A stretch of DNA of 64,000 bases from Phytoactinopolyspora halophila (GTDB taxonomy: Bacteria; Actinomycetota; Actinomycetes; Jiangellales; Jiangellaceae): assembly GCF_003287285.1 (NCBI RefSeq), contig NZ_QMIG01000003.1, forward strand, positions 186,001 through 250,000. Direction: 5' to 3'. The notes beneath the pieces were generated by a model that was given only the letters and a program-made list of their open reading frames with translations, ran no database searches and was not told the DNA's origin. The position numbers and the translations under genes were made by a program. Within the stretch, counting starts at the first letter, position 1. Each line of letters opens with the position of its first letter. Positions 14,963 through 36,981 of this stretch are shown here, one piece after another.

Positions 14963-14974
14963 CCCCCTTTCCGC

Positions 14975-15024
14975 TGATCATGAACACTTGGCAGGCCGCA
15001 CGGCCTGGCAAGTGTTCATGATCA
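14975..15024. repeat. Dispersed palindrome, copy A (TGATCATGAACAC family)
   Basis: Arms 14975-14998 and 15001-15024 are 24 bp with one mismatch around CA. Outer part TGATCATGAACAC / GTGTTCATGATCA; inner part pairs as TTGGCAGGCCG with CGGCCTGGCAA. It lies between convergent genes and supplies the TGA stop codon of the ABC exporter gene. It could act as a bidirectional terminator. Confidence 0.85.
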
Positions 15025-17628: not shown

Positions 17629-17798
17629 GGCGGAACGCGGGCCTCGGGGGTATCGGCGAAGCCCGTCCGGCTATCAGCACGCGTGCCATCCGGACACGCT
17701 GGGGCCCGCTCCACCGGGACGCCAGGTTCACCCGGGCCACGGAAGGTACGCTGTCAACAGCACTTTGCCGGAAAGAAGATTTCCATTATGGAGTCTAC

Positions 17799-18965
17799 GT
17801 GTCTCGACGACCAGGTACCCCGAGTTTGCTCCGTTCGATCAACGATCGCAACGCGCTCGAGTTGCTGTTGCACGACGGGCCTCTCACCCGCGTCGAGCTG
17901 AGCAAGCGTACGGGCCTGTCCAAGGTGACCGCCTCGCAGCTACTGTCCCGCCTGCAAGAACGTGACCTGGTGGAGGTTGTGGGTACTCGCTCGGCTCGGC
18001 GCGGGCCGAGCGCCGAGTTGTATGCCATCCGGCCCGACTGCTCGTACAGCATCGGAATCGAGATGGATCCCCACCATGTCCGGGCGTCGCTCGCCGATAT
18101 CACCGGCGCCGTCGTCAGTCACGTGGAACGCGAGGTGGAAGGAACCGGCGATCCGAAACAGCTGATCCACGACACCGCCGCTGACGTCGCCTCGCAGGGT
18201 GAGATCGAGCTGACGAAGGTCGACGAGGTCGTCATCGGCATGCCGGGGGTCGTCGATCCTGTGAGCGGTGACATCGAGCTCTCGTTCGATCTGCCGGGCT
18301 GGCACCGGGGGCTGCGGCACACCCTGGCCGCCGACCTCGGTGCCCGGGTGTCTTTCGAGAACGACGTCAATCTCGCCGCGTCCGCGGAACGAGCCGAGGG
18401 CGCGGGCCGCGATGTGGACAACATGGTGCTGCTGTGGGTCGGCCGGGGCGTCGGCTTGGCGATCGTTCTCGGCGGTGACGTGCATCACGGGGCCACCGGC
18501 GCGGCAGGCGAGATCGGCTACCTCCCGGTGCCCGGCGTGCCCTCGCCGGCCAACATCGAACGTCCGGCGCAAGGGGCACTTCAAGCCCTGGTCGGTGCCA
18601 GTGCGGTGCTGGAGCTCTCGCGCGAACACGGCATCGTCGCCGATGGTGCGCCCCAGGCCGTCCGGGCGGCGCTCGCTGGTGGTGCGGCTGCCGAGGGCTT
18701 CCTGCGCGAGCTGGCCGACCGGGTGGCACTGGGCTTGGCGGCCGTCTGCGCGGTCGTCGATCCCGCGGTGGTGGTCGTTGCCGGCGAGACGGGTGCTGCC
18801 GGTGGTGACGAGCTCTGTGCGCGGATCGCCGACGCCGTGCCGCACATCGCGCCGGTGCATCCGAAGGTCGTCCCCACGGGGATCGACGACTCGCCCATCC
18901 TGCGGGGCGCCGTTCTGGCGGCCGTGGACAAGGCGCGCCAGGCGATCATCATCTCGGCCGAGTAG
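17799..18965 (+). CDS. ROK-family transcriptional regulator (NagC/XylR type)
   Basis: Start GTG 17799 follows GGAG by five bases and gives 388 residues. The N-terminus is a winged helix (LELLLHDGPLTRVELSKRTG, then LSKVTASQLLSRLQE), followed by a ROK domain (IGIEMDPHHVRAS, GVVDPVSGDIELSF, NDVNLAASAERA, GVGLAIVLGGDVHHGATGAAGE). The zinc motif CxCGxxGCxE expected after GAAGEIGYLPVPG is absent, with PANIERPAQGALQA in its place. The downstream NagZ-like gene points to regulation of amino-sugar use. Confidence 0.9.
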   Translation: MSRRPGTPSLLRSINDRNALELLLHDGPLTRVELSKRTGLSKVTASQLLSRLQERDLVEVVGTRSARRGPSAELYAIRPDCSYSIGIEMDPHHVRASLADITGAVVSHVEREVEGTGDPKQLIHDTAADVASQGEIELTKVDEVVIGMPGVVDPVSGDIELSFDLPGWHRGLRHTLAADLGARVSFENDVNLAASAERAEGAGRDVDNMVLLWVGRGVGLAIVLGGDVHHGATGAAGEIGYLPVPGVPSPANIERPAQGALQALVGASAVLELSREHGIVADGAPQAVRAALAGGAAAEGFLRELADRVALGLAAVCAVVDPAVVVVAGETGAAGGDELCARIADAVPHIAPVHPKVVPTGIDDSPILRGAVLAAVDKARQAIIISAE

Positions 18966-19031
18966 CCGGCCGGCGCGGCGCACGGAATCACGGAGCGCGG
19001 AATCGCTGACGACGCGCATCGTCTACAATCT

Positions 19032-19056
19032 GGTAACTTACCTTACTATAGTTATC
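19032..19056. promoter_or_regulatory. AT-rich promoter with imperfect palindrome (candidate ROK operator)
   Basis: The 25-bp imperfect palindrome begins GGTAACT and ends AGTTATC (six of seven outer pairs match). It contains GGTAACTTACC and the -10-like TATAGT (19047-19052). It sits in a 60-bp AT-rich island between the ROK gene and the glycosidase gene, unlike the surrounding high-GC DNA. Confidence 0.45.
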
Positions 19057-19101
19057 TCTATTGATAATCCAGTTGCCTATAGTTGCCACCGGCCAAGGTT
19101 G

Positions 19102-20613
19102 ATGATGCGAAACCCTCCATATACCTCGCGCGAGCTGCGGACGCTCGCTCTCGGCACGATTTTCGCCGGCATCGACGGTCACCTCTCCCCTCCCCCGTGG
19201 CTGCACCGGTACGCCGCCGACGGGCTCGGTGGCGTCGTGCTGTTCGGCCGGAACATCCATCCTGACCATTCCGACGCCGGCGTTGCCCGGCTCACCGCCG
19301 CCATCCGCGAGGCAGGGCCGGACCTGCTCGTCGCGGTCGACGAGGAAGGCGGGGACATGACCCGCCTCGACGCCGCTTACGGATCACCCCTGCCCGGAAA
19401 CGCCGCGCTAGGCGTGCTGGACGAGCCAGCGCTGACCGAGCAGATCGCCGCCGAGCTGGCCGGGCGATTGCGTCGTTGCGGTGTTGACATCAACCTCGCG
19501 CCGGTCGCCGACGTCAACACCGAGGACGCGAACCCCGTCATCGGCGTTCGCTCGTTCGGCGCCGATCCCGAACTCGTCGCCCGGCATGTCGCCGCCTTCG
19601 TCACCGGCCAGCAGCGCCACGGAGTGGCCGCGACCGCGAAGCACTTTCCCGGGCACGGCGCGACGCGTGACGACAGCCACCTGACCATCCCGGTCCTGGA
19701 CATGGCAGACGAGGTCATCCGGAAAATCCAGCTTCCGCCGTTTCGCGCCGCTGTCGAAGCCGGCGCCGCGATGGTGATGACCGCGCACGTCCTCGTCTCC
19801 GCTCTCGACGAGTCCGGACCCGCGAGCCTGTCCCCGCCGATCGTCACCGGTCTGCTCCGGGACGAGCTGGGTCATCGCGGTGTCGTCATCACCGATGGGC
19901 TCGACATGGACGCGATGAGCCAGACCTACGGACATGCCGACGCGGCCGTGCGAGCGCTGGCCGCCGGTACCGACGCCCTGTGCATCGGCGGCGAAAGCAC
20001 GCGGCCCGAGCTGCTCGATCACATCGCGTCCGCCATCGTCGACGCGGTCGGCAACGGCCAGCTATCCGCCGAACGGCTCGTCGACGCGACGACCCGCATC
20101 GCCGGGTTACGGGAATGGTCGCGACGGGCGGCGCCGGCACCGGCGCCCGAGGACGCGGCGGTCGCAAACGGGTCGGCGGCCAGCGACGCGGCCCGTCGTG
20201 TCGTCACGGTTCAGGGTGACGTAGTGATCAGCGAGGCGCCGCTGGTACTGGAGCTGCACGATGCCCCGTCACCGGCCACCGGGGATGTCCCCTGGGGTAT
20301 CGGCCAGCCCCTCGCGGAACGCATGCCCGGCACGATCGTGGTGACCGTCCGCGAAGACGGCCCGGATGTCGGAACGGTACTCGCCGGACATCCGGACCGC
20401 GAGGTCGTCGTGAGTGTCCGCGGGACCCACCGGCACGGCTGGCAGCGGCGCGTGGTGCAGCAGGTGCGGCACCGATGCCCCGGCGTCCTCGTGGTCGATC
20501 ATGACGTCAGTGCGGCTCCGGGCGTGCTCGGGAACCGGTATGTACGCGCCTACGGCGCCTCGCGGGCCACGGCGGAGGCGGCGGCCGACGTCGTGACGGG
20601 CCGGCTGGCCTAG
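19102..20613 (+). CDS. Glycoside hydrolase family 3, beta-N-acetylhexosaminidase (NagZ-like)
   Basis: ATG 19102 (followed by a second ATG) gives 503 residues. The GH3 barrel carries VVLFGRNI, VAVDEEGGDMTRL, and the NagZ-type segment KHFPGHGATRDDSH with its Asp/His dyad (near residue 180). The nucleophile region ITDGLDMDAM follows. A smaller C-terminal domain of about 150 residues follows, longer than in minimal NagZ. No signal peptide is seen, so it is probably cytoplasmic, releasing GlcNAc from imported muropeptides or chito-oligosaccharides. A TTA codon occurs at residue 336. Confidence 0.92.
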   Translation: MMRNPPYTSRELRTLALGTIFAGIDGHLSPPPWLHRYAADGLGGVVLFGRNIHPDHSDAGVARLTAAIREAGPDLLVAVDEEGGDMTRLDAAYGSPLPGNAALGVLDEPALTEQIAAELAGRLRRCGVDINLAPVADVNTEDANPVIGVRSFGADPELVARHVAAFVTGQQRHGVAATAKHFPGHGATRDDSHLTIPVLDMADEVIRKIQLPPFRAAVEAGAAMVMTAHVLVSALDESGPASLSPPIVTGLLRDELGHRGVVITDGLDMDAMSQTYGHADAAVRALAAGTDALCIGGESTRPELLDHIASAIVDAVGNGQLSAERLVDATTRIAGLREWSRRAAPAPAPEDAAVANGSAASDAARRVVTVQGDVVISEAPLVLELHDAPSPATGDVPWGIGQPLAERMPGTIVVTVREDGPDVGTVLAGHPDREVVVSVRGTHRHGWQRRVVQQVRHRCPGVLVVDHDVSAAPGVLGNRYVRAYGASRATAEAAADVVTGRLA

Positions 20614-20617: not shown

Positions 20618-20663
20618 GAGCCACGTGGAGTCATGCCTGCGAGCCACGTGGCGTCATGCCTGG
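20618..20663 (+). repeat. Tandem 23-bp repeat with CCACGTGG
   Basis: Units 20618-20640 and 20641-20663 both read GAGCCACGTGG-A/C-GTCATGCCTG, with two differences. Each contains the 8-bp palindrome CCACGTGG. The second unit overlaps the last codons of the ceramidase-like gene. It lies between convergent genes. Confidence 0.65.
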
Positions 20664-21277
20664 CCGATGGCTGGCGCCAGCCGCCAAACCGCCACGGCGG
20701 CGAGAACGTGCCAGATCGCGTGGCCTTGCAGGAGGCTGTCCGGCTCGCACCACGGGCCGCCGGTACGCGAGAGCGTGCCGATGAGCGCGCCGGCGCCGAG
20801 GATCAGCATGGCGAGCAGGATGGTCTGGCGATGTTCCGGGCGGGCGCGCATCCGGAGCACGCTTGCCACCAGTGCCGCAGCGGCTACCACCGCTTCCAGC
20901 GGCGCGCTGTCAATACGGGTCGTTTCGGCGAGTGCCACGATCACCAGCGGTGGCAGGACCCACCACGCCGGTGAGAGCGGGCGGCCGCGCAGATCCGAGA
21001 CGGCGTCGGCGGCGACGAAGGCGAACAGCGCGATGAGCGGAAGGTCGTGCACGGGTTCCGCCCACGACGGCGCCGGTCCGTGAAACACGACGGACCCAGC
21101 CCCGGTGCCGATGGCCAGGACGGCGTAGATCGTGCGGCTCCGGTGGCTCGCCCGGCTGGCGAGCAGGATCGCCACGCCGGCGGCGACGAAGGCCAGGCTG
21201 GTGGTGGTGTTGGCGGCCTGGCCCAGGAAGCCGTCACCGAACGCCTCGCAGTCGGATTCCGCGGGACGATCAACCAT
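20654..21277 (-). CDS. Ceramidase-like integral membrane hydrolase (CREST superfamily)
   Basis: The 207-residue protein has about seven membrane segments and the conserved residues of the alkaline ceramidase/Per1-like CREST superfamily. The motif GSVVFHGPAPSWAEPVHDLP holds the Ser, His and Asp, and a C-terminal HAIWH carries the paired His. Family members are metal-dependent amidases or hydrolases acting on lipids. The start overlaps the TRAP permease stop by eight bases, so the two are translationally coupled. The substrate is unknown, and a role on the compound taken up by the transporter is speculation. Confidence 0.8.
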   Translation of the reverse strand: MVDRPAESDCEAFGDGFLGQAANTTTSLAFVAAGVAILLASRASHRSRTIYAVLAIGTGAGSVVFHGPAPSWAEPVHDLPLIALFAFVAADAVSDLRGRPLSPAWWVLPPLVIVALAETTRIDSAPLEAVVAAAALVASVLRMRARPEHRQTILLAMLILGAGALIGTLSRTGGPWCEPDSLLQGHAIWHVLAAVAVWRLAPAIGQA

Positions 21278-23237
21278 GTGGCTGACGGTACCCCCGCCGG
21301 GACTGCACGAACGCGATCGCGAGCATCACCACGAGGGCGGGCACGGCACTCACCCACTCGGGATAGACCAGGGCGATGCCGGAGGCGACGAGGAGGAGCC
21401 GCTCCACCGGATACGCCTCGCGTAGCAGGTAGCCGGTCAGTCCGGAGCTGACCGCAAGCAACCCGAGGAGGGCCGTGACCACCACCGGGATCAGCTCGCC
21501 GATGCTCGTGTCCTGCAGGAGCAAGGCGGGTTCGAGGATGAAGATGTACGGGATGATGAAACCGACGATGGCGATGCGCAGCGCCGTGACGCCGGTTTTG
21601 AGCGGATTCGAACCGGCGATCCCCGAGCCGGCATAGGCTGCGAGGCACACCGGCGGGGTGATATCCGCCAGGATGCCGAAGTAGAAGACGAACAGGTGTG
21701 CGGCGATCACCGGGACGTCGAACTCGTTGAGCAGGATCGGCGCCGCGATCGTCGCGGTGACCACGTAGTTCGCCGTGGTGGGCAGGCCCATGCCGAGGAG
21801 CAAGCAGGCCAGCATCGTGAAGATCAGCACCAGCGGGAACTGGCCGAACGCCAGATCGAGGATGCCGCCGGCGATCTTGCCGCCGAGACCGGTGGCGGTC
21901 ACGGTTCCGGCGACGATGCCGGCGGTCGCGCACGCTGCGATCACCGGCAGGGCCACCCGGGCACCGGCTTCCAGGAGCCCGACGATCGCGCGCGGCGAGA
22001 GCCGCGTCGACGACCGCGCGAAGCTCAGGACGAACGCCGCGGCAATCCCCCACAGCGCCGCATTCGCGGGCGTGCGCCCGCTGAGCAGCATCGTCACGAT
22101 GACGACGAGCGGCAGGAGGAGATCGAGACGCAGCAGCAAGCCGCGCCACGCGGGAAGCTCGCTGGCGTCCACACCGACGATCCCCCGCCGCTTCGCCTCG
22201 AAGTGGATGCCCATGAACAGGCCGGAGAAGTACAGCAGCGCGGGCAACAGCGCGAGGACGATGATCTCGCTGTAGGCCACACCCGTGTACTCCGCCATGA
22301 TGAACGCGGCCGCACCCATGACCGGCGGCATCAGCTGTCCCCCCGTGGACGCCGACGCCTCGGTGGCTGCCGCGAACGACGGCCGGAAACCGGCCCGCTT
22401 CATCATGGGGATGGTGAACGACCCCGACGCCACCGTGTTGGCCACGGAGCTGCCCGACACCATCCCCTGCGCGCCGCTCGCGACGATGGCCGCCTTCGCG
22501 GGACCGCCCGAATAGCGACCCGTGGCGCGGTAGGCGAGGTCGTTGAAGAAGCCGCCGATGTTCGTCTTGACCAGCAGCACCCCGAACAGCAGGAACAAGA
22601 AGATGAACGTCGACGACACCTGGATCGGCGTGCCGAAGACCGAGCGGCTGGTGAAGAAGGTCTCGACGGCGAACGCATCCCAGGTGTACCCGGCGTGCGG
22701 GAAGATCGGCATGTGCGGGCCGAAGATCCCGTAGAGGATGGCGATCGAGGCGATCACCACGATGGGCAGCCCGACGCAGCGCCGGGTGGCTTCGAGGACG
22801 AGCAAGATCCCGGCGACGGCGACGATGTGGTCGACGTCGGTGTACCCCAGGATCCGCACCTCCGCGCCGGTCAGCCGCTCGTAGTTGACGACGATGTAGA
22901 TGTTCGTCGCCAGTGCTGCCGCGGCGAGCAGCACGTCATACCACTGGATCCCCCGTCGGTTGCTCAGACTCGGCCGCACCGGGTAGAGCAGGAACACCAG
23001 GCCCATCGCGGCGCCGACATGCATGGCGCCTTGCACCAGGCTCGGGCGCGCTCCGTACAGCGCGGTGTACAGCTGAAAGACGGTGAGGGCGATGGCGAGC
23101 GGTCCCACGACCCACGCCCACGGCCCGAGGTCGATGCGGTATCGGCTCGCCGTGTCGTGTTTGCGCAAGACCTCGTGCGCGCGTTCGGTGGCCTCCCCCT
23201 GATCGGCCACCGTCGCCGTGTCGTGTGCGCTCACCAT
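21270..23237 (-). CDS. TRAP transporter fused permease (4TM/12TM, TAXI type)
   Basis: The 655-residue protein fuses the small DctQ-like and large DctM-like membrane subunits, as usual for TAXI-TRAP systems. A 110-residue N-terminal multi-helix part precedes the DctM part, with VSGSSVANTVASGSFTIPMM, EASASTGGQLMPPVMGAAAF and GMGLPTTANYVV motifs. TRAP systems import organic acids using an ion gradient. The gene starts 27 bp downstream of the TAXI lipoprotein gene and its stop overlaps the ceramidase-like gene. Confidence 0.95.
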   Translation of the reverse strand: MVSAHDTATVADQGEATERAHEVLRKHDTASRYRIDLGPWAWVVGPLAIALTVFQLYTALYGARPSLVQGAMHVGAAMGLVFLLYPVRPSLSNRRGIQWYDVLLAAAALATNIYIVVNYERLTGAEVRILGYTDVDHIVAVAGILLVLEATRRCVGLPIVVIASIAILYGIFGPHMPIFPHAGYTWDAFAVETFFTSRSVFGTPIQVSSTFIFLFLLFGVLLVKTNIGGFFNDLAYRATGRYSGGPAKAAIVASGAQGMVSGSSVANTVASGSFTIPMMKRAGFRPSFAAATEASASTGGQLMPPVMGAAAFIMAEYTGVAYSEIIVLALLPALLYFSGLFMGIHFEAKRRGIVGVDASELPAWRGLLLRLDLLLPLVVIVTMLLSGRTPANAALWGIAAAFVLSFARSSTRLSPRAIVGLLEAGARVALPVIAACATAGIVAGTVTATGLGGKIAGGILDLAFGQFPLVLIFTMLACLLLGMGLPTTANYVVTATIAAPILLNEFDVPVIAAHLFVFYFGILADITPPVCLAAYAGSGIAGSNPLKTGVTALRIAIVGFIIPYIFILEPALLLQDTSIGELIPVVVTALLGLLAVSSGLTGYLLREAYPVERLLLVASGIALVYPEWVSAVPALVVMLAIAFVQSRRGYRQPHG

Positions 23238-23264
23238 CGCCCCTTCTCGTTGCTGCCCGGGTGG

Positions 23265-24284
23265 CTAGAGCAGTCCCTGTTCCTCGAAGTACTGCTGCGC
23301 GCCGGGATGCAGCTCCAGATCACCCCGCCCGTTCAGGGCCTCCTCGACGGTGATTAGATCTCCCTGTGCGAGGGAGATGTCCCCGGCGTGTTCGTAGATC
23401 ACGCGGGTGAGCTCGTAGCCCAGCTCGGGACTGACCTGGGTCGTGGACGCCGCGACACCGGCGAACACGGACACCGTGCTCACGTCGCCGTCGTTAAAGT
23501 CGTAGGCGTCCTGCGGGATCGTGTACGCCTCGAAATCGGTCTCGGAGGCGATCGATTCGGCGATCGACTCCTCGATCGGAAGCAACTGCACGTCGTGCGT
23601 GGCGGCCAGCTCGTCGAGCGAGCCCGCCGGCACGCCCAGGATCTCGATCGACGCGTCGAGGTTGCCGTCCTGCAACCGCGAACGCGCGTCACCGAAGCTC
23701 TCCTCGAACGCCTCGTAATCGCCCTCTTCGATCCCGTGCGCGCTCAGGATCGCCTCGGCCACCGCCTGCGTGCCGCTTCCGGGCGGGCCCACCGAGATGC
23801 GCTGGCCTTCCAGATCCTCGATCGATTCGAAACCGCTGTCTTCGAGCGTGATGACCTGGGCGGCTTCCGGGTAGAGCTGGCCGAGCCAGCCGATGTTGTC
23901 GATGGCCATGCCCTCGAACTCTCCTGCCCCGGTCACGGCATCGATCGCGGTGTTGTTCTGGGTGAGGCCGATCTGCATCTCCCCCTGGAAGATCCGCCCC
24001 AGGTTGTCGACCGACGCGTCCGTCTCGATGGCGTTCACGGTCACGTCGTCGATGTGTTCTTCGAACAGGTTCGCGTACTCGGTGCCGAGCGGGAAGTACA
24101 CGCCGGCCGTGCCTCCCGTACCGAAGGTGAGGCTGGTGGTGAACTCCCCGTCCTGGCCCTCGGCCGCTTCGCCACCGTCGGCCTCGCCGTCACTCTCTCC
24201 ACCGTCGTCGTCACCGCACGCGGCCAAGGCCAGGGCCAGGGCACCCGTCAGCGCGAGGAGCTGGCTCCCACGCGTCGCTCTCAT
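23265..24284 (-). CDS. TAXI-family TRAP solute-binding lipoprotein (transport partner)
   Basis: The 339-residue protein has a signal peptide ending in the lipobox LAAC, an acidic Gly-rich linker, then a TAXI domain (LTFGTGGTAGVYFPLGTEYA, GLTQNNTAIDAV, ISVGPPGSGTQAVAEAIL). It is anchored outside the membrane and hands substrate to the permease, whose gene starts 27 bp downstream. TAXI proteins usually bind small organic acids such as glutamate or 2-oxoglutarate; the ligand here is not evident. Confidence 0.95.
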   Translation of the reverse strand: MRATRGSQLLALTGALALALAACGDDDGGESDGEADGGEAAEGQDGEFTTSLTFGTGGTAGVYFPLGTEYANLFEEHIDDVTVNAIETDASVDNLGRIFQGEMQIGLTQNNTAIDAVTGAGEFEGMAIDNIGWLGQLYPEAAQVITLEDSGFESIEDLEGQRISVGPPGSGTQAVAEAILSAHGIEEGDYEAFEESFGDARSRLQDGNLDASIEILGVPAGSLDELAATHDVQLLPIEESIAESIASETDFEAYTIPQDAYDFNDGDVSTVSVFAGVAASTTQVSPELGYELTRVIYEHAGDISLAQGDLITVEEALNGRGDLELHPGAQQYFEEQGLL

Positions 24285-24427
24285 CCATACGTCCTTTCTC
24301 GTGGGTCTGTTCCGGTCACATCCGCTGCGGCCGTGCGGGCGATCCCATCAACGCACGCGCGTGCGGGGAATGGGTGTTGAGGAGGTCTTGAGCTTCCGGA
24401 CGTGCGCGTCGGTGCACGTCCTCCGGC

Positions 24428-25381
24428 TCACGGTTTCGTCTCGCGGTAATAGCGCACGGCGCCGTCATGCAGATCGACGGGCTCGGTGAAGATCGCCCGC
24501 CGCTGGTCGAGACGCCCAGCTGCCCGGACGTGGCGGGCGATCTGCAAACGCTGGTCGAAGAGCACGCGCACGGCGTCGTATGCCAGTTGCGGCGCGGTCT
24601 CCTCCGCGGTGACCAGGTAGTTCGGCACCGCCATGGTCGCCACGCTGCCGGAGATGCCGTACGTTCCCTGGGGTACCACCGCGTGGCGGTAGACACCGTC
24701 GTACCGGGCGTTGACGTCGTCGACGTGCTCTTCCACCGGGACCAGCCGCACCGGCATCTCGTCCGCGAGCGTGGTCATGCCCGGCGTCGGCAACCCGCCC
24801 ACCCACACGAACGCGTCGATTTCGCCGCGCGAGAACGCCTCGATCGACGCGTCGATCCCGAGCGCGGCGTTGTCGAGCTCGTCCGGATCGATGTCGGCGA
24901 CGCGGAGCAGGCGCCGCGCGATGACGTCGGTCCCCGACCCCGGAGCGCCGAGCGACACGCGCAGGTCGCGCAGGTCCGCGAGCTCGTCGACGGCAGCGTC
25001 GCCGGGCACGACGACGTGGACGAACTCGTCGTACACCCGGGCCACCGCCTCGATCGGCATCGGCTCGTCGAACGGCGGCCGCCCGGCCACGGCGTCGACG
25101 GCGGTGTCGCCCTGGGTGAACCCCAGCAGGGCCTCCCCGGAGGCGACCCGCTCCAGGTTCTCCACCGACCCGTCGCTCTCCTCCACGACGACGGAGAGAT
25201 CGAGCTCGTCGGACATCGCCCCGGCCAGGTAGCGCCCGTAGTTGTAATACACCCCCGTGGTGCCGCCGCCGGTGATGACGTGCCGCTCGCCCGATCCCGG
25301 ATCGTCGCCGGTGCACGCGGCGATCAGCGCGATCGGCGGCGCGAGCACGAGTACGAGGAGCACCGTGGCCATGCGTGTCAT
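24428..25381 (-). CDS. TAXI-family solute-binding lipoprotein coupled to the histidine kinase
   Basis: This is a second TAXI protein of 317 residues with lipobox IAAC and the core HVITGGGTTGVYYNYGRYLA, GFTQGDTAVDAV and VSLGAPGSGTDVIARRLL. It is clearly divergent from the copy at 23265. The ATG overlaps the histidine kinase stop by four bases (ATGA). A 143-bp gap separates it from the downstream TAXI gene. The coupling suggests it reports ligand to the kinase rather than feeding the permease, as solute-binding proteins do in some tripartite sensory systems, but this is inference. Confidence 0.93.
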   Translation of the reverse strand: MTRMATVLLVLVLAPPIALIAACTGDDPGSGERHVITGGGTTGVYYNYGRYLAGAMSDELDLSVVVEESDGSVENLERVASGEALLGFTQGDTAVDAVAGRPPFDEPMPIEAVARVYDEFVHVVVPGDAAVDELADLRDLRVSLGAPGSGTDVIARRLLRVADIDPDELDNAALGIDASIEAFSRGEIDAFVWVGGLPTPGMTTLADEMPVRLVPVEEHVDDVNARYDGVYRHAVVPQGTYGISGSVATMAVPNYLVTAEETAPQLAYDAVRVLFDQRLQIARHVRAAGRLDQRRAIFTEPVDLHDGAVRYYRETKP

Positions 25382-26757
25382 GCCTGTTCCCCACTCGCCG
25401 GCATCCGCAGGGTGACGACCAACCCGCCGCTGTCGGCCGGGGCGACGCCGAGCGTGCCGCCGCAGGACGCCAGGAACTCCGTCGCGATGGCCAGGCCCAG
25501 CCCCGAGCCCGCGACCTCCTGGTGCGGGGAACCGCGCCAGAACCGTTCGTCGACGCGTGCCAGCTCGTCGCCGGGCAGGCCCGGCCCGTGATCACGCACC
25601 GCGATCTCGACCATCTCGTCCCCGTTCGTGACCGACACGTCCACCGACGAACGCGCTGGTGAGTACTTCACCGCATTGTCGAGCACGGCGTCGAACGCGC
25701 TCTCGATCACGATCTCGTCCACCATGCCCCACACCGCCGTATCGTCGTGCAGGCGCAATGCGACGTCGTGCTGTTCGGAGATCGGCTGCCAGGCGTCCAG
25801 ACGGCGCTCGACGAGGGCGCGCAGATCCACCGGCGACGTCTCCGGTTCCGAGTGCTGCCCCCGGGCAAGCATGAGCAGCGCATCCAGGATCCGGGTCATG
25901 CGCCTGCCCTCCTCGCGGGCGCGCTCCGCCTCGTCGGCCCACTCCTCCGGCACGCCCATCGCCAGATGCTCGATACGCAGCAGCAACGCGTTCAACGGGT
26001 TACGCAACTCGTGCGAGGCGTTGGAGACGAACTCCTGCTGCCGGTGGATCAGGTGCTCAACCTCCTCGGCCATGGCATTGAACATCGCGATCATGTGGCG
26101 CAGCTCCGGGGGCCCGGTGGTGTCGGAGATGCGTGCCTCCATGTGGCCGTGCCACATCTCCGTCATTGCCGAGTCGACCCGGCGGATCGGGCGCAGCACC
26201 CAGTTCGCCAGCCGGGACACCAGGAACAGGCTCGCCCCGATCGCCAGGAGACCGCCGAGGGCGAGCACGCCCCACTGCCGCAACACGTCGCGGGCGACGG
26301 CGTCCGTGCTCGACGACGTGACTACGGCACCGATCAAATCGCCCGCGTCGAAGATCGGCTCGGCCACCACGAGATCGTCGAACGTCCACGGCAGCACGCT
26401 CTGCGGCGCCTCGCTGCGCCGTCCGGCCAGGGCCGTCTGCACGACGCTCATGGCGTTGTCGTCGAGCGCGAGAGTGTTGAGCCCGCTGCTGACCCACATG
26501 TCACCGGCCCGGTCGAGCACGGCCGCCTCGATGCCGTAGACCTCCCGGTAGCGCTCCAGCTCGCCGTCGATCACCGTCGGATCGTCCGAGCGCAGCGCCT
26601 GCCGGGCGCTAGTCACGAGATACCCGGTGTCGTCCAGCCGATCGACGAACAGCTCCTGCTGCGCCGCCAGCGCCACGCTGCGACCGTACGCCACGCCCAG
26701 GACCGCGAACAGCGCGATCAGCGGGATGATGAAGACGACGATCAGACGTGCGCGCAC
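25378..26757 (-). CDS. Two-component sensor histidine kinase
   Basis: The 459-residue protein has a membrane segment at residues 5-28, an extracellular region of about 130 residues (DTGYLVTSARQAL...VVAEPIFDAGDLIGAVV) and a second membrane segment near residues 165-185. HAMP, the phosphoacceptor helix (SNASHELRNPLNAL, His249) and the ATPase domain follow, with N box LDNAVKYS and glycine-rich DHGPGLPGDE and GSGLGLAIA. It starts six bases after the response regulator stop. Its stop overlaps the TAXI gene start. Confidence 0.95.
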   Translation of the reverse strand: MRARLIVVFIIPLIALFAVLGVAYGRSVALAAQQELFVDRLDDTGYLVTSARQALRSDDPTVIDGELERYREVYGIEAAVLDRAGDMWVSSGLNTLALDDNAMSVVQTALAGRRSEAPQSVLPWTFDDLVVAEPIFDAGDLIGAVVTSSSTDAVARDVLRQWGVLALGGLLAIGASLFLVSRLANWVLRPIRRVDSAMTEMWHGHMEARISDTTGPPELRHMIAMFNAMAEEVEHLIHRQQEFVSNASHELRNPLNALLLRIEHLAMGVPEEWADEAERAREEGRRMTRILDALLMLARGQHSEPETSPVDLRALVERRLDAWQPISEQHDVALRLHDDTAVWGMVDEIVIESAFDAVLDNAVKYSPARSSVDVSVTNGDEMVEIAVRDHGPGLPGDELARVDERFWRGSPHQEVAGSGLGLAIATEFLASCGGTLGVAPADSGGLVVTLRMPASGEQA

Positions 26758-26762
26758 GCCGG

Positions 26763-27437
26763 CTACCCGCTCGCCAGCCGGTACCCCACGCCCCGGACGG
26801 TCTCGATGACATCATGCGAGCCCAGCTTGCGCCGGATCGAGCCCACGTGCACTTCGAGGCTGCGTCCCAGGCCGCGCCAGTTCGTCTGCCAGACCTCCCG
26901 CAAGATCCGCTCGCGCGGGAGCGCCACCCCGGGATGGCGGGCGAGCAAGGCGACGACGTCGAATTCCTTCTTGGTGAGCGGCACGTCCTCGCGACCGGCG
27001 ATCACTCGCCGGGAGGCGAGATCGATGTGTACCTCGCCGACCCGGATCGGCGTCTCGGCGCCCGTGCGCGCGGAATCGCGGGAGCTGCCGCGCCGGTTGA
27101 TGGCCTCGATCCGTGCCATGAGCTCGCGCACGTCGTAGGGCTTGACGACGTAATCGTCCGCGCCGACCTCCAGCCCGTGAATCCGGGCCTGGAGCTGGGA
27201 TCGGGCGGTCGCCATGATGACCGGTGCGTCGGAGAGGCGGCGGATCTTGCGGCACAGTTCGAAACCGTCGATGTCCGGGAGCCAGAGGTCGAGCAGGACC
27301 ATCTCGGTATCGGCGCCGAGCGCCTCAAGTGCCTGCCGCCCGTCGCGGGCCCACACCGTCTCGTAACCGGCCCGGTTCAGCACGGCCACGAGCGCGCTCG
27401 CCACGTGGGCGTCGTCTTCGACGATGAGGAGTCGCAC
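26763..27437 (-). CDS. Response regulator, OmpR/PhoB family
   Basis: The 224-residue protein has a receiver domain (RLLIVEDDAHVASAL, phosphoacceptor Asp50 in VLLDLWLPD, Lys in VKPYD) and a C-terminal winged helix (VPLTKKEFDVVALLA, VWQTNWRGLGRSLEVHVG). GTG 27437 was chosen because GGAGGT sits five bases upstream and the receiver domain begins there. It is first in the operon with the kinase, so it should control the TAXI/TRAP genes downstream. Confidence 0.95.
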   Translation of the reverse strand: MRLLIVEDDAHVASALVAVLNRAGYETVWARDGRQALEALGADTEMVLLDLWLPDIDGFELCRKIRRLSDAPVIMATARSQLQARIHGLEVGADDYVVKPYDVRELMARIEAINRRGSSRDSARTGAETPIRVGEVHIDLASRRVIAGREDVPLTKKEFDVVALLARHPGVALPRERILREVWQTNWRGLGRSLEVHVGSIRRKLGSHDVIETVRGVGYRLASG

Positions 27438-27463: not shown

Positions 27464-27520
27464 CCGCTGATCATGAACACGTTCCGACCACATAGGTCGG
27501 AAAGTGTTCATGATCAGCGG
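27464..27520. repeat. Dispersed palindrome, copy B (TGATCATGAACAC family)
   Basis: Arms 27464-27489 and 27495-27520 are 26 bp with one mismatch. Outer CCGCTGATCATGAACAC; inner TTCCGACC pairs with GGTCGGAA; loop ACATA. It lies between the end of the RidA gene and the start of the response regulator gene, and could terminate transcription from the catabolic cluster. Confidence 0.85.
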
Positions 27521-27532: not shown

Positions 27533-27907
27533 TTATGAGGAGACCGCGACGACGTCGATCTCGACCAGGATGTTCATCAGATCCGACCCGACGGTGGTGC
27601 GAACCGGGCGGGAGCCGGTGAACCGGCGGCCGTAGACATCGTTGAACTGGGCGAAGTGCTCGTGCAGGTGTTGCAGGTGCGCGGTCACCTTCACGACGTC
27701 CTGCAGACCCAGCCCGGCGGCGCGCAGGGCCCGCTCGACGTTGTCGATGGTGAGTTCGGTCTGCGCGACAATGCCCTCGGGCACCTCACCGGTCTGCGGG
27801 TCGATCGGGCCGAACCCGGCGGTCCACACGGTCGAACCAGCGACGGCGACGTGGCTGTACGGGCCCCCTGGCGTGGGCAGGTCGTCGCTGATGATGAACT
27901 CCGCCAT
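27533..27907 (-). CDS. RidA-family enamine/imine deaminase
   Basis: The 124-residue protein is a RidA/UK114 domain: PGGPYSHVAVAGSTVWTAGFG, LTIDNVERALRAAGLGLQDV and PVRTTVGSDLM with the conserved Arg that holds substrate carboxylates. RidA proteins hydrolyse reactive enamine/imine products of PLP enzymes. It is last in the catabolic cluster that contains a class III aminotransferase, consistent with clearing such intermediates. Confidence 0.93.
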   Translation of the reverse strand: MAEFIISDDLPTPGGPYSHVAVAGSTVWTAGFGPIDPQTGEVPEGIVAQTELTIDNVERALRAAGLGLQDVVKVTAHLQHLHEHFAQFNDVYGRRFTGSRPVRTTVGSDLMNILVEIDVVAVSS

Positions 27908-27967
27908 GGCATTGTCTCCTCGGATTGTCGATGTGTTGGTGCGGCAGGATAGCAGCGTCCCGACCGG

Positions 27968-28756
27968 TCACCAGTGTGCCCAGCCGCCGTCCACGTTGAG
28001 CACCTGGCCGGTCATGAACGAACTGTCGTCGCTGGCGAGAAAGAGAAACGTGCCGGCGACATCCTCGGCGAAGCCGCGTCGTTTCAGCGACTGCGCCGCG
28101 GTCACCCGGGCGAACACGGCGTCGGCGTCGGGGAAGAGCTCCGTCTCGTGCTCGGTGCGGATGGCGCCCAGCATGACGGCGTTCACCCGGATGCCGTCCG
28201 TCCCGGCCTCGCGCGCCATGGCGCGCGTGAACCCGATGAGTCCCGCCTTGCTCGCGGTGTAGTGCACGGCGTTCTCCTGGCCGGTGGCGACCATGATGCT
28301 GGTGACGTTGATGACGCACGCGTGTTCGCTCGCCCGCAGATCGGGATAGGCGGCGCGGGCCACGAGCCAGGAACCGCGCAGGTTCACCCGGTGGATGTGG
28401 TCCCACTGCTCCACGGTGAGCTCGTGCCACGGCCCGCGCGCGGACGCGGCGGCGTTGTTGACGACGACGTCGATCGGCCCGAGTCCGGACCGCGCGGAGG
28501 CCACGAGGGCGTCGACGGCATCGGGATCGGCGAGATCGGCACCGATGGCCAGCGCCTGCCCGCCCGCGGCGACGATCTCCGCGACGAGCTTCTCGGCCTG
28601 CTCGCTCGGCTCGGGGCCGGGTTCGTGTGCCACGGCGACTGCGGCGCCCTCGTTCGCGTACGTTCGTGCGACGGCCGCGCCGATCCCTCGCGAGGCGCCC
28701 GTGACGAGCGCGACTCGCCCGTCCAACCGGCCGCCGCGCCGCGTCCCGGCGATCAT
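27968..28756 (-). CDS. SDR-family oxidoreductase (catabolic cluster)
   Basis: The 262-residue protein has VTGASRGIGAAVA (cofactor), DVVVNNAAASARG, catalytic Ser in VTSIMVATG, and HYTASKAG (YxxxK). The C-terminus FMTGQVLNVDGG is that of the FabG-like group. Start 28756 overlaps the SMP-30 stop by four bases (ATGA). It may oxidise a hydroxy acid or sugar alcohol in the pathway. Confidence 0.93.
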   Translation of the reverse strand: MIAGTRRGGRLDGRVALVTGASRGIGAAVARTYANEGAAVAVAHEPGPEPSEQAEKLVAEIVAAGGQALAIGADLADPDAVDALVASARSGLGPIDVVVNNAAASARGPWHELTVEQWDHIHRVNLRGSWLVARAAYPDLRASEHACVINVTSIMVATGQENAVHYTASKAGLIGFTRAMAREAGTDGIRVNAVMLGAIRTEHETELFPDADAVFARVTAAQSLKRRGFAEDVAGTFLFLASDDSSFMTGQVLNVDGGWAHW

Positions 28757-29646
28757 ATGAGCCCCATCTCGACCACGGCCGGCCGCCGGGCCACGCCGGC
28801 GTGCTCGCTGCGCGCGTGATAGAGCCGGCCGGCCCACGGCTCGCGCGCGCTGCGTTCGTCGTTGTAGCCCTCGCGCGCGGTGGTGATGAGAAGCTCTTTG
28901 CGGTCCGGCCCGCCCAGCTCCACGCTCGTCGATTGGGGCGGGTCCACCTCCACGGACGTGTCGAAGACACCCGACGCGTCGTAGCGGCGAATCTCGCCGG
29001 CGCCGTACATCGCCACCCACACGCCGCCGTCGATGTCCGTGGCGAGCCCGTCCGGAACGGCATCGTCCGGGGAGAACGTCAGGAACCGTTCGCTGCCGAG
29101 AACGGTGCCCGAAGCCATGTCCACCCGATGGGACCAGACGGTGCGTTCGAGCGTGTCCACGTGCAGCAGGTGTTTCTCGGCGACGTCCCAGGCCATGCCG
29201 TTCGACATGGTGAATCCTTCGACCGCGGCCGCGATCCGTCCATCCGGCTCCACGCGCAGCAACGCGCCGCCACCGGGTGCCTGGCCGGGTGCGATCGAGC
29301 CGATCCAGAGCCGCCCCCACGAGTCGGCGACGCCGTCGTTGACCATCCACCCCTCGTCAAGGCCAAGATCACACCAGCGCACGGCGGTGAACCGCATGCC
29401 GGGGCCCCGACGGCGGAGCACGTAGAGCACCTGTTGACGAGCCACCACGGCACCGCCGGAGACCTCGGGATGCACGAGCGACGTGCGTTCCCCCAGCGAC
29501 CAGACGGCCGTGGCGGAACGTCCGGGCTGGCGCGCCCACACGCCGTCGCTCGCATCGACCCACCACCAGATGCGGCCGTCCCACCGGGGGCTCTCGCCGA
29601 GCACCGTGCGCGGGCCGTCCGGCTCGTCGATCAGGGTTGCCCGCAC
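28753..29646 (-). CDS. SMP-30/gluconolactonase-like lactonase
   Basis: The 297-residue beta-propeller has the metal-binding segments of SMP-30: LGESPRWDGRIWWWVD (Glu), WMVNDGVADSWGRLWIG, TMSNGMAWD (Asn) and VPDGLATDIDGGVWVA (Asp). These hydrolyse sugar lactones or related esters. GTG 29646 overlaps the aminotransferase stop by 16 bp. The neighbours (SDR, aminotransferase, isomerase-like) suggest a sugar-acid or amino-acid pathway. Confidence 0.92.
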   Translation of the reverse strand: MRATLIDEPDGPRTVLGESPRWDGRIWWWVDASDGVWARQPGRSATAVWSLGERTSLVHPEVSGGAVVARQQVLYVLRRRGPGMRFTAVRWCDLGLDEGWMVNDGVADSWGRLWIGSIAPGQAPGGGALLRVEPDGRIAAAVEGFTMSNGMAWDVAEKHLLHVDTLERTVWSHRVDMASGTVLGSERFLTFSPDDAVPDGLATDIDGGVWVAMYGAGEIRRYDASGVFDTSVEVDPPQSTSVELGGPDRKELLITTAREGYNDERSAREPWAGRLYHARSEHAGVARRPAVVEMGLI

Positions 29647-30908
29647 GCCGCCTCCACCGACAGCGCCGCGTCCAGCCGTTCGAGCGTCGCGGAGAGCTCG
29701 ACGTCGCCGTGCGCGGCCGAGACGTACCAGATGCCTCGCGGGGCCACCCAGATGCCGTGGTCGGCGAGGGTGTGGCTGAACGCCGCGTACCGGTCGAGGT
29801 CGAAGCTGGCCAGCCCGGCGTGGTCCAGGATGGATCCGGGCGAGCCGAACGAGACGTGAAAGGCGACCGGCAAGCCTTGCACGCGCAGCGGCAGATCGTG
29901 CTGGACGGCGAGCTCGCGGATACTGTCCATGAGCTTGGTTCCGTGCGCGTGCACCCGGCCATACGGCGGATCCTCGCGCAACAGCGTGAGCGTCGAGACC
30001 ACAGCGGCACATGCCGGAACCGACGAATTGAACGTTCCGGCATGGGTGACGCCGTCGGCGAACAGGTCCATCAGCGTCGCGCTGCCGGCCAGGGCCGACA
30101 CGGGCCACCCGCCGGCCATCGCCTTGCCGTAAACGGCGAGGTCCGGAGTGACGCCGAAGTACTCGGCCGCTCCCCCGAGAGCAAGCCGGAAGCCCGTGAT
30201 GACCTCGTCGAAGATCAGCACGACGCCGTGCTGGTCACACAATTCCCGCAGGCGGTGCAGATAGCCCTCGACCGGCAGGATCGCCCCGCTGTTGCAGAGC
30301 ACGGGCTCGACGATGACGGCCGCGATGTCGTCGTCCTGGTCCAGGAGCGTCTCCAGCGCGGCCGTGTCGTTGTAGGGCAGGACGTAGCTGTCGTCGAGAT
30401 GGCGGGAGAGTTGGCCGGCGCTGGCCGGGCGCGGGACACCATCGACCGTCGTGATCAGGACGTTGTCCAGCCAGCCGTGATACGTCCCGGCAAAACGGAC
30501 GAATCTGGTGCGCCCCGTCGCAGCCCGCGCCAGGCGCAGCGCCGCCTGGTCCGTTTCGGTTCCCGTGACACCGAAGCGGACCTTCTCGGCCCAATCCACG
30601 GACTCCAGGAAGAGCTCGCCAGCGCGATTTTCCAGCGTGTGTTGGCCCGCGAACACCGAACCACGCCGCATCTCCCGTGCCACCGCGTCCGTCACCTGAC
30701 GCGGGGCGTGCCCGAGAAAGATCGGACCTTGACCCAGAAGGTAGTCGATGTAGTCGTTGCCGTCTTCGTCGTACAGCCAGGCGCCCTCGCCCCGTTCGAA
30801 GAACACCGAGGGTCCCGCGAGCCGCACGTTCGAGTGCACGCCACCCGGCGTGATCTCGCGTGCCCGTTCGGCCAGCTCGGCCGAGCGCGTCCGTGTCAGC
30901 AACGACAT
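29631..30908 (-). CDS. Class III PLP aminotransferase, glutamate-1-semialdehyde aminomutase-like
   Basis: The 425-residue protein shows the class III fold: PGGVHSNVRLAGPSVFFERG, GTETDQAALRLARAATGR, IFDEVITGFRLALGG (PLP-ring Asp) and PLP lysine in AVYGKAMAGG. The N-terminus resembles GSA aminomutase, but the catabolic context argues against heme biosynthesis. It could act on a beta-amino or omega-amino acid. Start 30908 was chosen because GGAAGG lies five bases upstream. Confidence 0.9.
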   Translation of the reverse strand: MSLLTRTRSAELAERAREITPGGVHSNVRLAGPSVFFERGEGAWLYDEDGNDYIDYLLGQGPIFLGHAPRQVTDAVAREMRRGSVFAGQHTLENRAGELFLESVDWAEKVRFGVTGTETDQAALRLARAATGRTRFVRFAGTYHGWLDNVLITTVDGVPRPASAGQLSRHLDDSYVLPYNDTAALETLLDQDDDIAAVIVEPVLCNSGAILPVEGYLHRLRELCDQHGVVLIFDEVITGFRLALGGAAEYFGVTPDLAVYGKAMAGGWPVSALAGSATLMDLFADGVTHAGTFNSSVPACAAVVSTLTLLREDPPYGRVHAHGTKLMDSIRELAVQHDLPLRVQGLPVAFHVSFGSPGSILDHAGLASFDLDRYAAFSHTLADHGIWVAPRGIWYVSAAHGDVELSATLERLDAALSVEAACGQP

Positions 30909-30936
30909 CAGCACCTTCCCGCCTGAACTATGTTTT

Positions 30937-30942
30937 ATTGTA
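30937..30942 (-). promoter_or_regulatory. Candidate -10 (TACAAT) in an AT-rich island before the aminotransferase gene
   Basis: The 50-bp AT-rich stretch 30926-30975 interrupts the cluster between M81 peptidase and aminotransferase genes. On the minus strand it gives TACAAT about 30 bases before the ATG. TTGTACGAA (30938-30946) is a near-palindrome around GTAC. A second promoter within the cluster is likely. Confidence 0.45.
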
Positions 30943-30996
30943 CGAAATATATCTTTCTTTAACTACTCCTATGATGGGGCATCGGCGCACATAACG

Positions 30997-32505
30997 TCAA
31001 CGAAAGCTCGCCGGCTCGAAGGGAAACATGGGCCGCCGCCGGTACCGGTAGGTGAAATTCGACAAGTCCGCACTCGTGGCGCCCGGCGTGGCCACCCAGA
31101 TCAGGCGGGTCGCGAGCGGCTCGAACGCCGCCCGTGGCGAGTGCACGCCCTTCGCCACGATGATCCGCTCGTGCCGGGGTTCGATCCCGAGCGTCCGGAA
31201 CTGTTCCTGGCTCCGGGTGCCCTCCGGACGGGAATGGACGGCGAGCGCCAAGCCGTCGTCGGTCCGGATGCCTGCGGACGTGCCCAGGTCGAAGAACCGT
31301 GCCCCGCCATGCGTGGGCGTGGGATCCTCGAACTTCCCGTCGGTGACCGCGACGACCTCACCGGCCACCGGCAGTGGCGCGCCGTGCCGGTCGTCCACCC
31401 GGCCACCGACCTCCAGCTCCACCCGGGCGCCCGGACCCGCGGCCGCGGCCTCGCGCGCGGCTCGTGGATCGAAAAGGCACGCCGCCACGCCGCGGATGCC
31501 CAGCTGGCGGGCCGCGTGCAACACGTGTGTGGAATCCCCGGGGCTCCCGCCGCCGACGTTGTCCCCCATGTCCAGCAGCACCACCGGCCCGCGGGCGGCC
31601 GCGTCCGCCTCGCGCAGGGCGTCGTCGATACCGTGAGCGTCGCCGGCGAACTCCGCGCGCCGCTGCCAGGCCGCGTCGGCGATCCGGTACGCCACATCGC
31701 CGGCCAGGGCGTCGTCCCCGTCGGTGACGGCGAGCACCGACATGCCCATCTCCGGCACGTCCGCGTACGGGAAGCCCTCCACCACGCTCACCGACAGCAC
31801 CCCCGGCCGGCGCTCCTCCTCGCGGGCCTGCCGCAACAGCGAGGCCATGGGCTCGTCGCTGGTCCCTTGCCGCAGGATGTTGATCGCCAGCGGCACGTCG
31901 GCCAGCGCCATCACCGGCTCGATCTCACCCCGGATCTGCCGGCCGAGCAGCCGCGCACAGGCCAGCCCTTGCTCGCGGGCGTCGACGTGGGGATTCGTCT
32001 GGAACACCGTGATGACATCGGCATGCGAGACCATGGCATCCGAGACGTTGGCGTGCAGATCGAGCGTGACGCCGATCGGGACGCGCCCGCCGACAACGTC
32101 CCGGACCCGCCGGATGGTCTCGCCGTCGGCGTCGAGATGGTGCTCGGCGACAGCCGCGCCGTGCTGCGGCATCAGCACCCCGTCCCACGGTCCCGCCTCG
32201 CGCAGGGCGGCCACCATCCGGCCGGCGAGATGCTCGTATGCTTCCCGGGTGCTCACGCCGGTGGGCGTGATCCAGCTGAACAGCAGCGGCACCAGCTCGA
32301 CCCCGGGGTCCTCGGCCTCGTAGCCGAAGAACCCGGCCAGGATCGACTCCGAGCTGGCGTAACGCTCCCGGATGGCCGCGCCCTCCAAGATGCCGGCGTG
32401 TTGCCACGCCTGGAGAGTCGCGGGTACCGGGGCGAAGGAATTGGCCTCATGTCCGAAGCCGACGGCCGCCAGGCGCATCCGGCCGGCAGTTGCCATGACA
32501 CTCAC
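30997..32505 (-). CDS. M81-family metallopeptidase (MlrC-like)
   Basis: The 502-residue protein matches the MlrC family: an N-terminal GFGHEANSFAP, WDGVLMPQHGAAVAEHHLDADGE with metal residues, GVTLDLHANVSD, NPHVDAREQG, and a C-terminal MlrC_C part (VVLLDMGDNVGGGSPGDS). The founding member, microcystinase C, cleaves a linear peptide; most members have unknown substrates. It follows the isomerase-like gene by 60 bp. Confidence 0.93.
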   Translation of the reverse strand: MSVMATAGRMRLAAVGFGHEANSFAPVPATLQAWQHAGILEGAAIRERYASSESILAGFFGYEAEDPGVELVPLLFSWITPTGVSTREAYEHLAGRMVAALREAGPWDGVLMPQHGAAVAEHHLDADGETIRRVRDVVGGRVPIGVTLDLHANVSDAMVSHADVITVFQTNPHVDAREQGLACARLLGRQIRGEIEPVMALADVPLAINILRQGTSDEPMASLLRQAREEERRPGVLSVSVVEGFPYADVPEMGMSVLAVTDGDDALAGDVAYRIADAAWQRRAEFAGDAHGIDDALREADAAARGPVVLLDMGDNVGGGSPGDSTHVLHAARQLGIRGVAACLFDPRAAREAAAAGPGARVELEVGGRVDDRHGAPLPVAGEVVAVTDGKFEDPTPTHGGARFFDLGTSAGIRTDDGLALAVHSRPEGTRSQEQFRTLGIEPRHERIIVAKGVHSPRAAFEPLATRLIWVATPGATSADLSNFTYRYRRRPMFPFEPASFR

Positions 32506-32565
32506 ACCTCACCTGATCCGACCCACCGCGCCAGGCGGAGAGTTTCATCAAACGGTATGAGCGTA

Positions 32566-33393
32566 TCAGTCAGGTGGGAGGTGTGGAATCAGTTCGTGCA
32601 GCACGGCGGCGTCCCGAACGACGTTGGCCGGATCGTCGTCGGGAACGAACTCCATCAGCGCATCGATCGTCTCGCCGCTCCCGGCCGCCGTGCCGCTCCC
32701 GGCGCCGGCCAGGTACGCGAACGCCTCGCGCCACAGCGAGCTTCGCTCGGCCAGCGGCAACCGCTGCGTATCCGGCCACCACGAGAAGACGTGGACCGCC
32801 CGCACCTGATCGCCCAGCCGGCGCAAGGTCGCCAGCGCATCCTCGGCCGGCATGCCGTTCGGTGGCTGCCAGTAGCTCGTCACGTTCGCCCGATCCACGT
32901 CCGCGAGCAGCGCGAGCGTCGAATCGATGTCGTCGGTCAACGTCCCCGCGTGGTACTCGAATCCCAGCTCGATGCCCTCGTCGGCAGCCCGATCGGCGGC
33001 ATGGCGCGTCGCCTCCGCGACGGCACGCCGCTCCTCCGTGCCGGCCTCGGCCGAACCGACCGAGCCGGCCCAGATCCGGATGCGCGGCGCTTCCAGCGCC
33101 CGCGCCGTGCGCAGCACGTCCTCGAACTCCTCCGCGGTGCTCGTACCAGCACGGTAGTAGCTGCCGAGCGACGTCACGACGAGACCGGCCGCGGCCGTGA
33201 GCCGTGCCACCCGTCGCGCTTCGGCCTCGTCACCGGCCGGCGCGTGGACGTCGGATCCCCATTCCACGCCGTGCAGCCCGGCCTCGGCGGCCACCGCCAG
33301 GACCTCCTCGACCGGCAGCTGCCGGAGCGTGATCGAGCACAATCCCGGCCGGATCGGTGCCCCGTCTTCTTGCGCTGCATTTCGGGCTGGCAT
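32566..33393 (-). CDS. Sugar phosphate isomerase/epimerase-like TIM-barrel protein
   Basis: The 275-residue protein belongs to the xylose-isomerase-like TIM-barrel family: LCSITLRQLPVEEVLAVAAE, GLHGVEWGSDVHAP, LGFEYHAGTLTDDID (metal Glu) and VRAVHVFSWWP. Its substrate cannot be read from the sequence. It is the first gene of the minus-strand catabolic cluster. Confidence 0.9.
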   Translation of the reverse strand: MPARNAAQEDGAPIRPGLCSITLRQLPVEEVLAVAAEAGLHGVEWGSDVHAPAGDEAEARRVARLTAAAGLVVTSLGSYYRAGTSTAEEFEDVLRTARALEAPRIRIWAGSVGSAEAGTEERRAVAEATRHAADRAADEGIELGFEYHAGTLTDDIDSTLALLADVDRANVTSYWQPPNGMPAEDALATLRRLGDQVRAVHVFSWWPDTQRLPLAERSSLWREAFAYLAGAGSGTAAGSGETIDALMEFVPDDDPANVVRDAAVLHELIPHLPPD

Positions 33394-33403
33394 CGCACTC
33401 CCT

Positions 33404-33409
33404 TACGCT
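33404..33409 (+). promoter_or_regulatory. Candidate -10 of a leaderless promoter for the DUF2277 gene
   Basis: TACGCT ends six bases before the ATG at 33416, which has no ribosome binding site. It lies in the 22-bp space shared with the divergent isomerase-like gene. Confidence 0.4.
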
Positions 33410-33415
33410 CGACTC

Positions 33416-34092: not shown

Positions 34093-34112
34093 CCACCACC
34101 TCCTCTCCCCCT

Positions 34113-35750
<1,638 letters not shown>

Positions 35751-35754
<4 letters not shown>

Positions 35755-36947: not shown

Positions 36948-36975
36948 GGTGAACATCATCCCATAGGTCGTGAGG

Positions 36976-36981
36976 TAGTCT
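36976..36981 (+). promoter_or_regulatory. Candidate -10 of a leaderless promoter for tldD
   Basis: TAGTCT lies six bases before GTG 36988, followed by CG as at the AfsR-like gene. No ribosome binding site is present. The 40-bp region is shared with divergent aroC. Confidence 0.45.

Follow-up and report, generated by a model that had tools for sequence, protein, structure and literature searches.

A GluR/GluK-type two-component locus of Phytoactinopolyspora halophila with a putative TAXI sensor lipoprotein and an adjoining TRAP-TAXI importer

A 64,000-nt stretch of the genome of Phytoactinopolyspora halophila (assembly GCF_003287285.1, contig NZ_QMIG01000003.1, positions 186,001-250,000; the whole stretch is called the window) encodes a two-component system beside two TAXI-family lipoproteins, a TRAP permease and a ceramidase-like protein. 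The source genome is that of a 5.04-Mb actinobacterium, which we take to belong to the family Jiangellaceae. All six open reading frames were confirmed on the minus strand at the coordinates given in a first-pass annotation of the sequence, and family scans bore out the families proposed for them there. The OmpR-family response regulator, which is GluR-like (26763..27437; Pfam Response_reg and Trans_reg_C), starts at a GTG codon at 27437 preceded by GGGAGG; the mechanical open reading frame opens at TTG 27461. It is followed by a GluK-like membrane histidine kinase (25378..26757; HAMP-HisKA-HATPase), the ectodomain of which (approximately residues 30-150) was modelled by AlphaFold2 with moderate confidence. 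Downstream are TAXI1, a lipoprotein solute-binding protein proposed here as a sensor subunit (24428..25381; TIGR02122, 246.8 bits); TAXI2, the putative lipoprotein solute-binding protein of the transporter (23265..24284; TIGR02122, 247.5 bits); a fused TRAP permease of the DctQM type (21270..23237; TIGR02123, 709.6 bits); and a ceramidase-like membrane hydrolase of the CREST superfamily (20654..21277; PF05875, 36.3 bits, the cut-off being 32.5 bits), which we judge to lie outside the system.

The response regulator and kinase genes are 5 nt apart. The overlaps previously noted between kinase and TAXI1 genes and between permease and ceramidase-like genes are real, at 4 nt and 8 nt, respectively. 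A gap of 143 nt parts TAXI1 from TAXI2 and contains a conserved direct repeat proposed as an operator, CTCAA-N6-CTCAA (24377..24392, minus strand), which has an 11-bp period and lies 92 bases ahead of the start of TAXI2. Because of this gap and the conserved repeat in it, the genes are probably arranged as two transcription units (regulator-kinase-TAXI1 and TAXI2-TRAP) rather than as the single six-gene operon of the first-pass annotation, of which the five genes from regulator to permease still form a coherent module while the ceramidase-like gene does not belong. Within the 143 nt, the predicted fold was no better than shuffled sequences when a terminator or attenuator was sought, and no sigma-70-like promoter was found. 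TAXI2 and the permease, with TIGR02122 and TIGR02123 scores both above cut-off and genes 27 nt apart, are assigned to the TAXI-TRAP transporters, and binding-protein-dependent secondary uptake is predicted for them.

The triad of response regulator, histidine kinase and TAXI1 recurs across many families of Actinomycetes. Homologues were detected with a TAXI1 profile in 133 of 394 genomes sampled from the class, and the TAXI homologues in the neighbourhoods inspected are of two kinds, adjoining either a kinase-regulator pair or a TRAP permease. The triad adjoins TAXI2-TRAP in the window, in genomes G020 and G021, and in more distant systems. Both G020 and G021 have the conserved order regulator-kinase-TAXI1-amidohydrolase-TAXI2-TRAP, the amidohydrolase being a PF07969 protein, and their products are 81-85% (regulator), 71-78% (kinase), 65-71% (TAXI1), 77-85% (TAXI2) and 83-85% (permease) identical to those of the window. 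Elsewhere the triad lacks a neighbouring TRAP permease and adjoins the gluABCD operon: nine such loci were counted in Streptomyces-like genomes (f19 g24), five in a Jiangella-like genus (g5), and two in each of families f36 and f28, where the labels Streptomyces-like and Jiangella-like are inferred assignments. TAXI2 orthologues adjoin the orthologous permease in three other genomes, at 79-80% identity.

With a mutual identity of only about 30%, TAXI1 and TAXI2 are not the products of a recent duplication. In a maximum-likelihood tree of 66 TAXI proteins, a single branch (support 94/98) parts 38 kinase-adjacent proteins from 28 transport proteins, among which are VcGluP and TTHA1157; none of 500 shuffles gave as few changes, the shuffled mean being 21.5. 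The window's TAXI1 groups with the 38 kinase-adjacent proteins, and its closest relatives outside its own family are the gluABCD-linked proteins of f36. The earlier suggestion, of a sensor role reserved for the TAXI beside the kinase and a separate transport role for the one beside the permease, is supported by the tree and by the triads that lack a nearby TRAP permease: TAXI1 appears to be a sensor subunit serving the kinase, and TAXI2 the transporter's own binding protein.

The two-component proteins are akin to GluR-GluK of Streptomyces coelicolor, which, according to passages of a review (PMC9739842), senses glutamate and controls the adjacent gluABCD genes. The window's regulator is 52-73% identical to regulators adjoining gluABCD, and its kinase is 38-57% identical to gluABCD-linked kinases; an OmpR-type regulator and a HAMP kinase are encoded together in both settings, next to a transporter operon preceded by a shared repeat (upstream of TAXI2 here, of gluA elsewhere). 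The adjacent operon in the window is TAXI2-TRAP in place of gluABCD, and the locus was therefore filed as a GluRK variant, not as GluRK-gluABCD itself. The best match to gluB in the window genome is 34% identical and located elsewhere. A close gluB (at least 51% identity) is present in 19 of the 22 genomes of the family, and the three others are the window genome, G020 and G021, exactly those with a TRAP-linked triad. This distribution of gluB fits the displacement of GluABCD by a TRAP-TAXI importer under the same sensor; as G020 and G021 belong to one genus, the replacement may represent one or two events. By analogy with GluR-GluK, the locus may respond to extracellular glutamate.

The repeat at 24377-24392 is the only copy of CTCAA-N6-CTCAA in the window (0.03 expected). 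Seventeen exact matches were found in 988 kb of fetched loci (0.47 expected), and all are situated upstream of gluA or immediately after TAXI1, where the next gene is TAXI2, the amidohydrolase, gluA or an M14 carboxypeptidase. In a leave-lineage-out matrix scan of roughly 30,000-40,000 positions per locus, of which about 1% belong to the upstream region, the highest-scoring site ahead of the transporter ranked between first and fifth in all 22 loci and first in 13. A weaker form, CTCA-N7-CTCA, is present in the gluA promoters of Streptomyces-like genomes, and the regulators of the window and of gluABCD-linked loci have in common the recognition-helix motif [RH][ST]LEVH. Direct repeats of this form are what OmpR-type regulators usually bind. 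CTCAA-N6-CTCAA is treated as a candidate operator shared by gluA and TAXI2 promoters, with its novelty limited by a 2017 GluR-GluK paper, outside the literature covered here, that may already map the operator.

Several variants of these gene neighbourhoods were observed. Genes for M14 zinc carboxypeptidases flank the triad in several genera (L044 17361-19463, L125 8337-10679, L136 4509-7076); some of them carry the repeat just upstream and may share the regulon. Loci L131 and L132 contain a distant version in which two tandem transport TAXIs and a DUF1850-like gene precede the permease, and the kinase is convergent with its own TAXI. At L014-L020, L115, L118 and L122 (g5 and f17), a TRAP permease and a TAXI appear to occupy one open frame of approximately 700-1030 residues, which suggests permease-TAXI fusions.

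The TAXI-TRAP protein VcGluP holds glutamate through Tyr45, Ser75, Gln93, Glu125, Tyr200 and Met201 (PMC11574862). The corresponding residues are Tyr, Ser, Gln, Glu, Trp and Val in the window's TAXI1, and Tyr, Ser, Gln, Glu, Glu and Ile in TAXI2. The contacts to glutamate's alpha-carboxyl and amino groups are conserved in TAXI1 and TAXI2 alike, which makes an alpha-amino acid the likely ligand; since the side-chain end of the pocket differs, the compound preferred by TAXI1 need not be the one preferred by TAXI2. Gene context points in the same direction as the pocket, and glutamate is the moderately favoured candidate. The amide-containing or lipid-derived ligand first guessed at loses its basis once the ceramidase-like gene is set outside the system.

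A cluster of catabolic genes upstream of the response regulator (27533-33393) encodes RidA, an SDR protein, an SMP-30 lactonase, a class-III aminotransferase, an M81 (MlrC) peptidase and a xylose-isomerase-like protein. These genes were considered as a guide to the ligand and rejected, because in G020 and G021 the operon occurs without them; a dispersed palindrome between them and the regulator is a further reason. This 57-bp palindrome (CCGCTGATCATGAACAC...GTGTTCATGATCAGCGG) has an inner stem that is variable but mostly self-complementary, and occurs in the window at 14971-15028, 27464-27520 and 34114-34170. With 49 exact-arm copies in the genome, compared with none for the reversed control, it is a dispersed repeat family.

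In the mechanism proposed for the locus, the external lipoprotein TAXI1 would bind an amino acid, most likely L-glutamate, and present the bound ligand to the kinase ectodomain; the membrane kinase would then phosphorylate the response regulator. Binding of the regulator to CTCAA-N6-CTCAA in the TAXI1-TAXI2 gap would in turn raise the transcription of the TAXI2 and fused TRAP permease genes, whose products would import the ligand; in this lineage, the TRAP-TAXI importer would have replaced the GluABCD ABC (ATP-binding cassette) transporter that adjoins the homologous triad elsewhere. The M14 carboxypeptidases or amidohydrolase that flank the triad in relatives are also counted in favour. We consider it probable that the locus is a GluR/GluK-type two-component system with TAXI1 as a third component, controlling a TRAP-TAXI importer that displaced GluABCD.

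Several observations weigh against this interpretation. GluK of S. coelicolor is reported, in the review passages cited above, to bind glutamate directly (PMC9739842), so that TAXI1 may be an accessory. The sensor TAXIs of g5 and of the Streptomyces-like genus have Ala in place of Gln93 and Asp in place of Glu125, and TAXI2 has Glu at the position of VcGluP Tyr200; with such substitutions, ligands may differ. The exact repeat is not enriched genome-wide (four copies, compared with four for the reversed control), its other three genomic copies are all within coding sequence, and a genome-wide regulon defined by it was rejected, with nothing found beyond chance. Recruitment of TAXI sequences with a profile of TAXI1 may bias the tree towards a clean split, and many of the loci come from close relatives, so that the counts overstate the number of independent events.

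Direct binding of glutamate by GluK (PMC9739842, in the same passages) would also suit an arrangement in which the kinase senses glutamate through its own ectodomain and both TAXIs feed the permease with two ligand specificities, as would the difference at pocket position 200, where TAXI1 has Trp and TAXI2 has Glu. This arrangement is unlikely, however, given that TAXI1-type genes accompany kinases in loci with no TRAP permease close by, and that a branch of the tree divides them from every permease-adjacent TAXI. That TAXI1 is a kinase inhibitor or adaptor which no longer binds a ligand, or that it signals transport flux instead of external concentration, seems distinctly improbable: several lineages of sensor TAXIs do have altered pocket residues (Ala for Gln93, Asp for Glu125), but the window's TAXI1 keeps the equivalents of Tyr45, Ser75, Gln93 and Glu125. 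TAXI1 as a ligand-binding sensor subunit of the kinase is preferred to both.

The ceramidase-like gene was correctly named by the first-pass annotation. Its product has the complete and conserved CREST motifs (S62xxxH66, D78 and H186xxxH190), of which the SxxxH, Asp and HxxxH elements are required for catalysis by human ACER3 (PMC3146951, PMC9436119). The predicted model has seven helices, as in ACER3 and the CREST superfamily (predicted local distance difference test score 90.7), and its best match by fold search of the PDB is human ACER3 (6g7o; E 1.5e-4, query template-modelling score 0.76), whereas a profile of the protein had no match at E 1 among the sequences of solved structures. Together with the PF05875 match, the motifs and fold place the protein in the CREST/alkaline ceramidase superfamily, and ceramide hydrolysis may be its activity. 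It is 16% identical to ACER3 over the structural match and is judged to lie outside the sensor/transport system.

The neighbourhood of this gene was compared in the 24 other genomes of the class sample that have a ceramidase-like gene. In none of them is the orthologue adjoined by a gene for a TRAP, TAXI or kinase protein, over a span of several kb in 14 genomes and of 1.5 kb or more in the other ten. In five genomes of Phytoactinopolyspora, treated here as a sister genus, the orthologues are 54-58% identical and lie near a gene for a ROK-family regulator (66-74% identical to that of the window), at most about 7 kb away in all five; a NagZ gene (59-61% identical) is convergent with the ceramidase-like gene in three of the five. 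The same junction exists in the window, where a NagZ-like glycoside hydrolase (19102..20613, plus strand) converges with the ceramidase-like gene and is preceded by the ROK-family regulator (17796..18965, plus strand, start approximate). In Phytoactinopolyspora the ROK and NagZ genes have a binding-protein gene and ABC permease genes between them; these are missing from the window (17796-20613). The TRAP permease is elsewhere or absent in the five genomes; a profile search of contigs with the ceramidase alignment returned four loci only, all from Phytoactinopolyspora. In G020 and G021 the ceramidase-like gene and the TRAP permease share a contig but are over 200 kb distant from each other, and none of the permease orthologues (78-85% identical, in G002, G020 and G021) has a ceramidase neighbour.

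With a conserved NagZ/ROK neighbourhood and no linkage to TRAP, TAXI or kinase genes in the 24 genomes compared, the junction in the window is most simply explained by rearrangement, and we judge the ceramidase-like gene to be a chance neighbour placed behind the permease and at most read through. A six-gene system, in which the hydrolase would process an amide or lipid ligand sensed by the TAXIs and imported by the permease, has in its favour the 8-nt overlap on the same strand and the complete CREST motifs but is highly improbable in the face of these neighbourhoods; the first-pass annotation had itself named such a neighbourhood comparison as one that could refute it.

If the proposed three-component system is correct, the TAXI family, which has until now been treated as one of transport proteins, gains a signalling branch; the glutamate-sensing system of antibiotic-producing Streptomyces gains a missing component; and the locus becomes a clean case of sensor and operator keeping control while an unrelated transporter was swapped in. 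The broader proposal, that throughout Actinomycetes GluR-GluK is a three-component system with a TAXI lipoprotein as primary glutamate receptor, a conserved CTCAA-N6-CTCAA operator and an exchangeable transporter (mostly gluABCD, TRAP-TAXI in others), is rated as having an even chance of being right. A search of the literature covered here found no description of a TAXI protein as the partner of a histidine kinase.

Known systems resemble the locus in different respects. GluR-GluK/gluABCD of S. coelicolor (SCO5778/79, SCO5774-77) likewise has an OmpR-type regulator gene and then a kinase gene beside a transporter operon, and Streptomyces-like loci bear a form of the same direct repeat upstream of gluA; in contrast, the target transporter in the window is TRAP-TAXI, and the kinase gene has an overlapping TAXI lipoprotein gene, whereas the review passages on GluR-GluK mention no TAXI protein. 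VcGluP (VC0430) shares the TAXI family, the main glutamate-contact residues and the fused permease, but has a single TAXI and no described kinase partner (PMC11574862). BctCDE-BctBA of Bordetella pertussis also has a secondary-transporter binding protein that signals to a sensor kinase controlling the transporter genes, but one protein (BctC) does both jobs, and the system belongs to the TTT family and concerns citrate (PMC5812351). GlnH-GlnX-PknG of Corynebacterium and Mycobacterium comprises an actinobacterial lipoprotein that binds acidic amino acids and reports to a membrane signalling protein, but in a Ser/Thr kinase pathway and with another binding-protein family (PMC9769921, PMC6069109). 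The closest functional precedent is CuaDSR of Ruminiclostridium cellulolyticum, in which a second solute-binding protein, encoded beside the two-component genes, reports to the kinase while the transporter keeps its own, although the protein families are different, the ligand is cellobiose and the transporter is of the ABC type (PMC10384115). In the window, too, a binding-protein gene is tied to the kinase gene by their overlap and is distinct from that of the transporter in the tree, and TAXI1 may, by analogy with CuaDSR-type systems, contact the kinase ectodomain.

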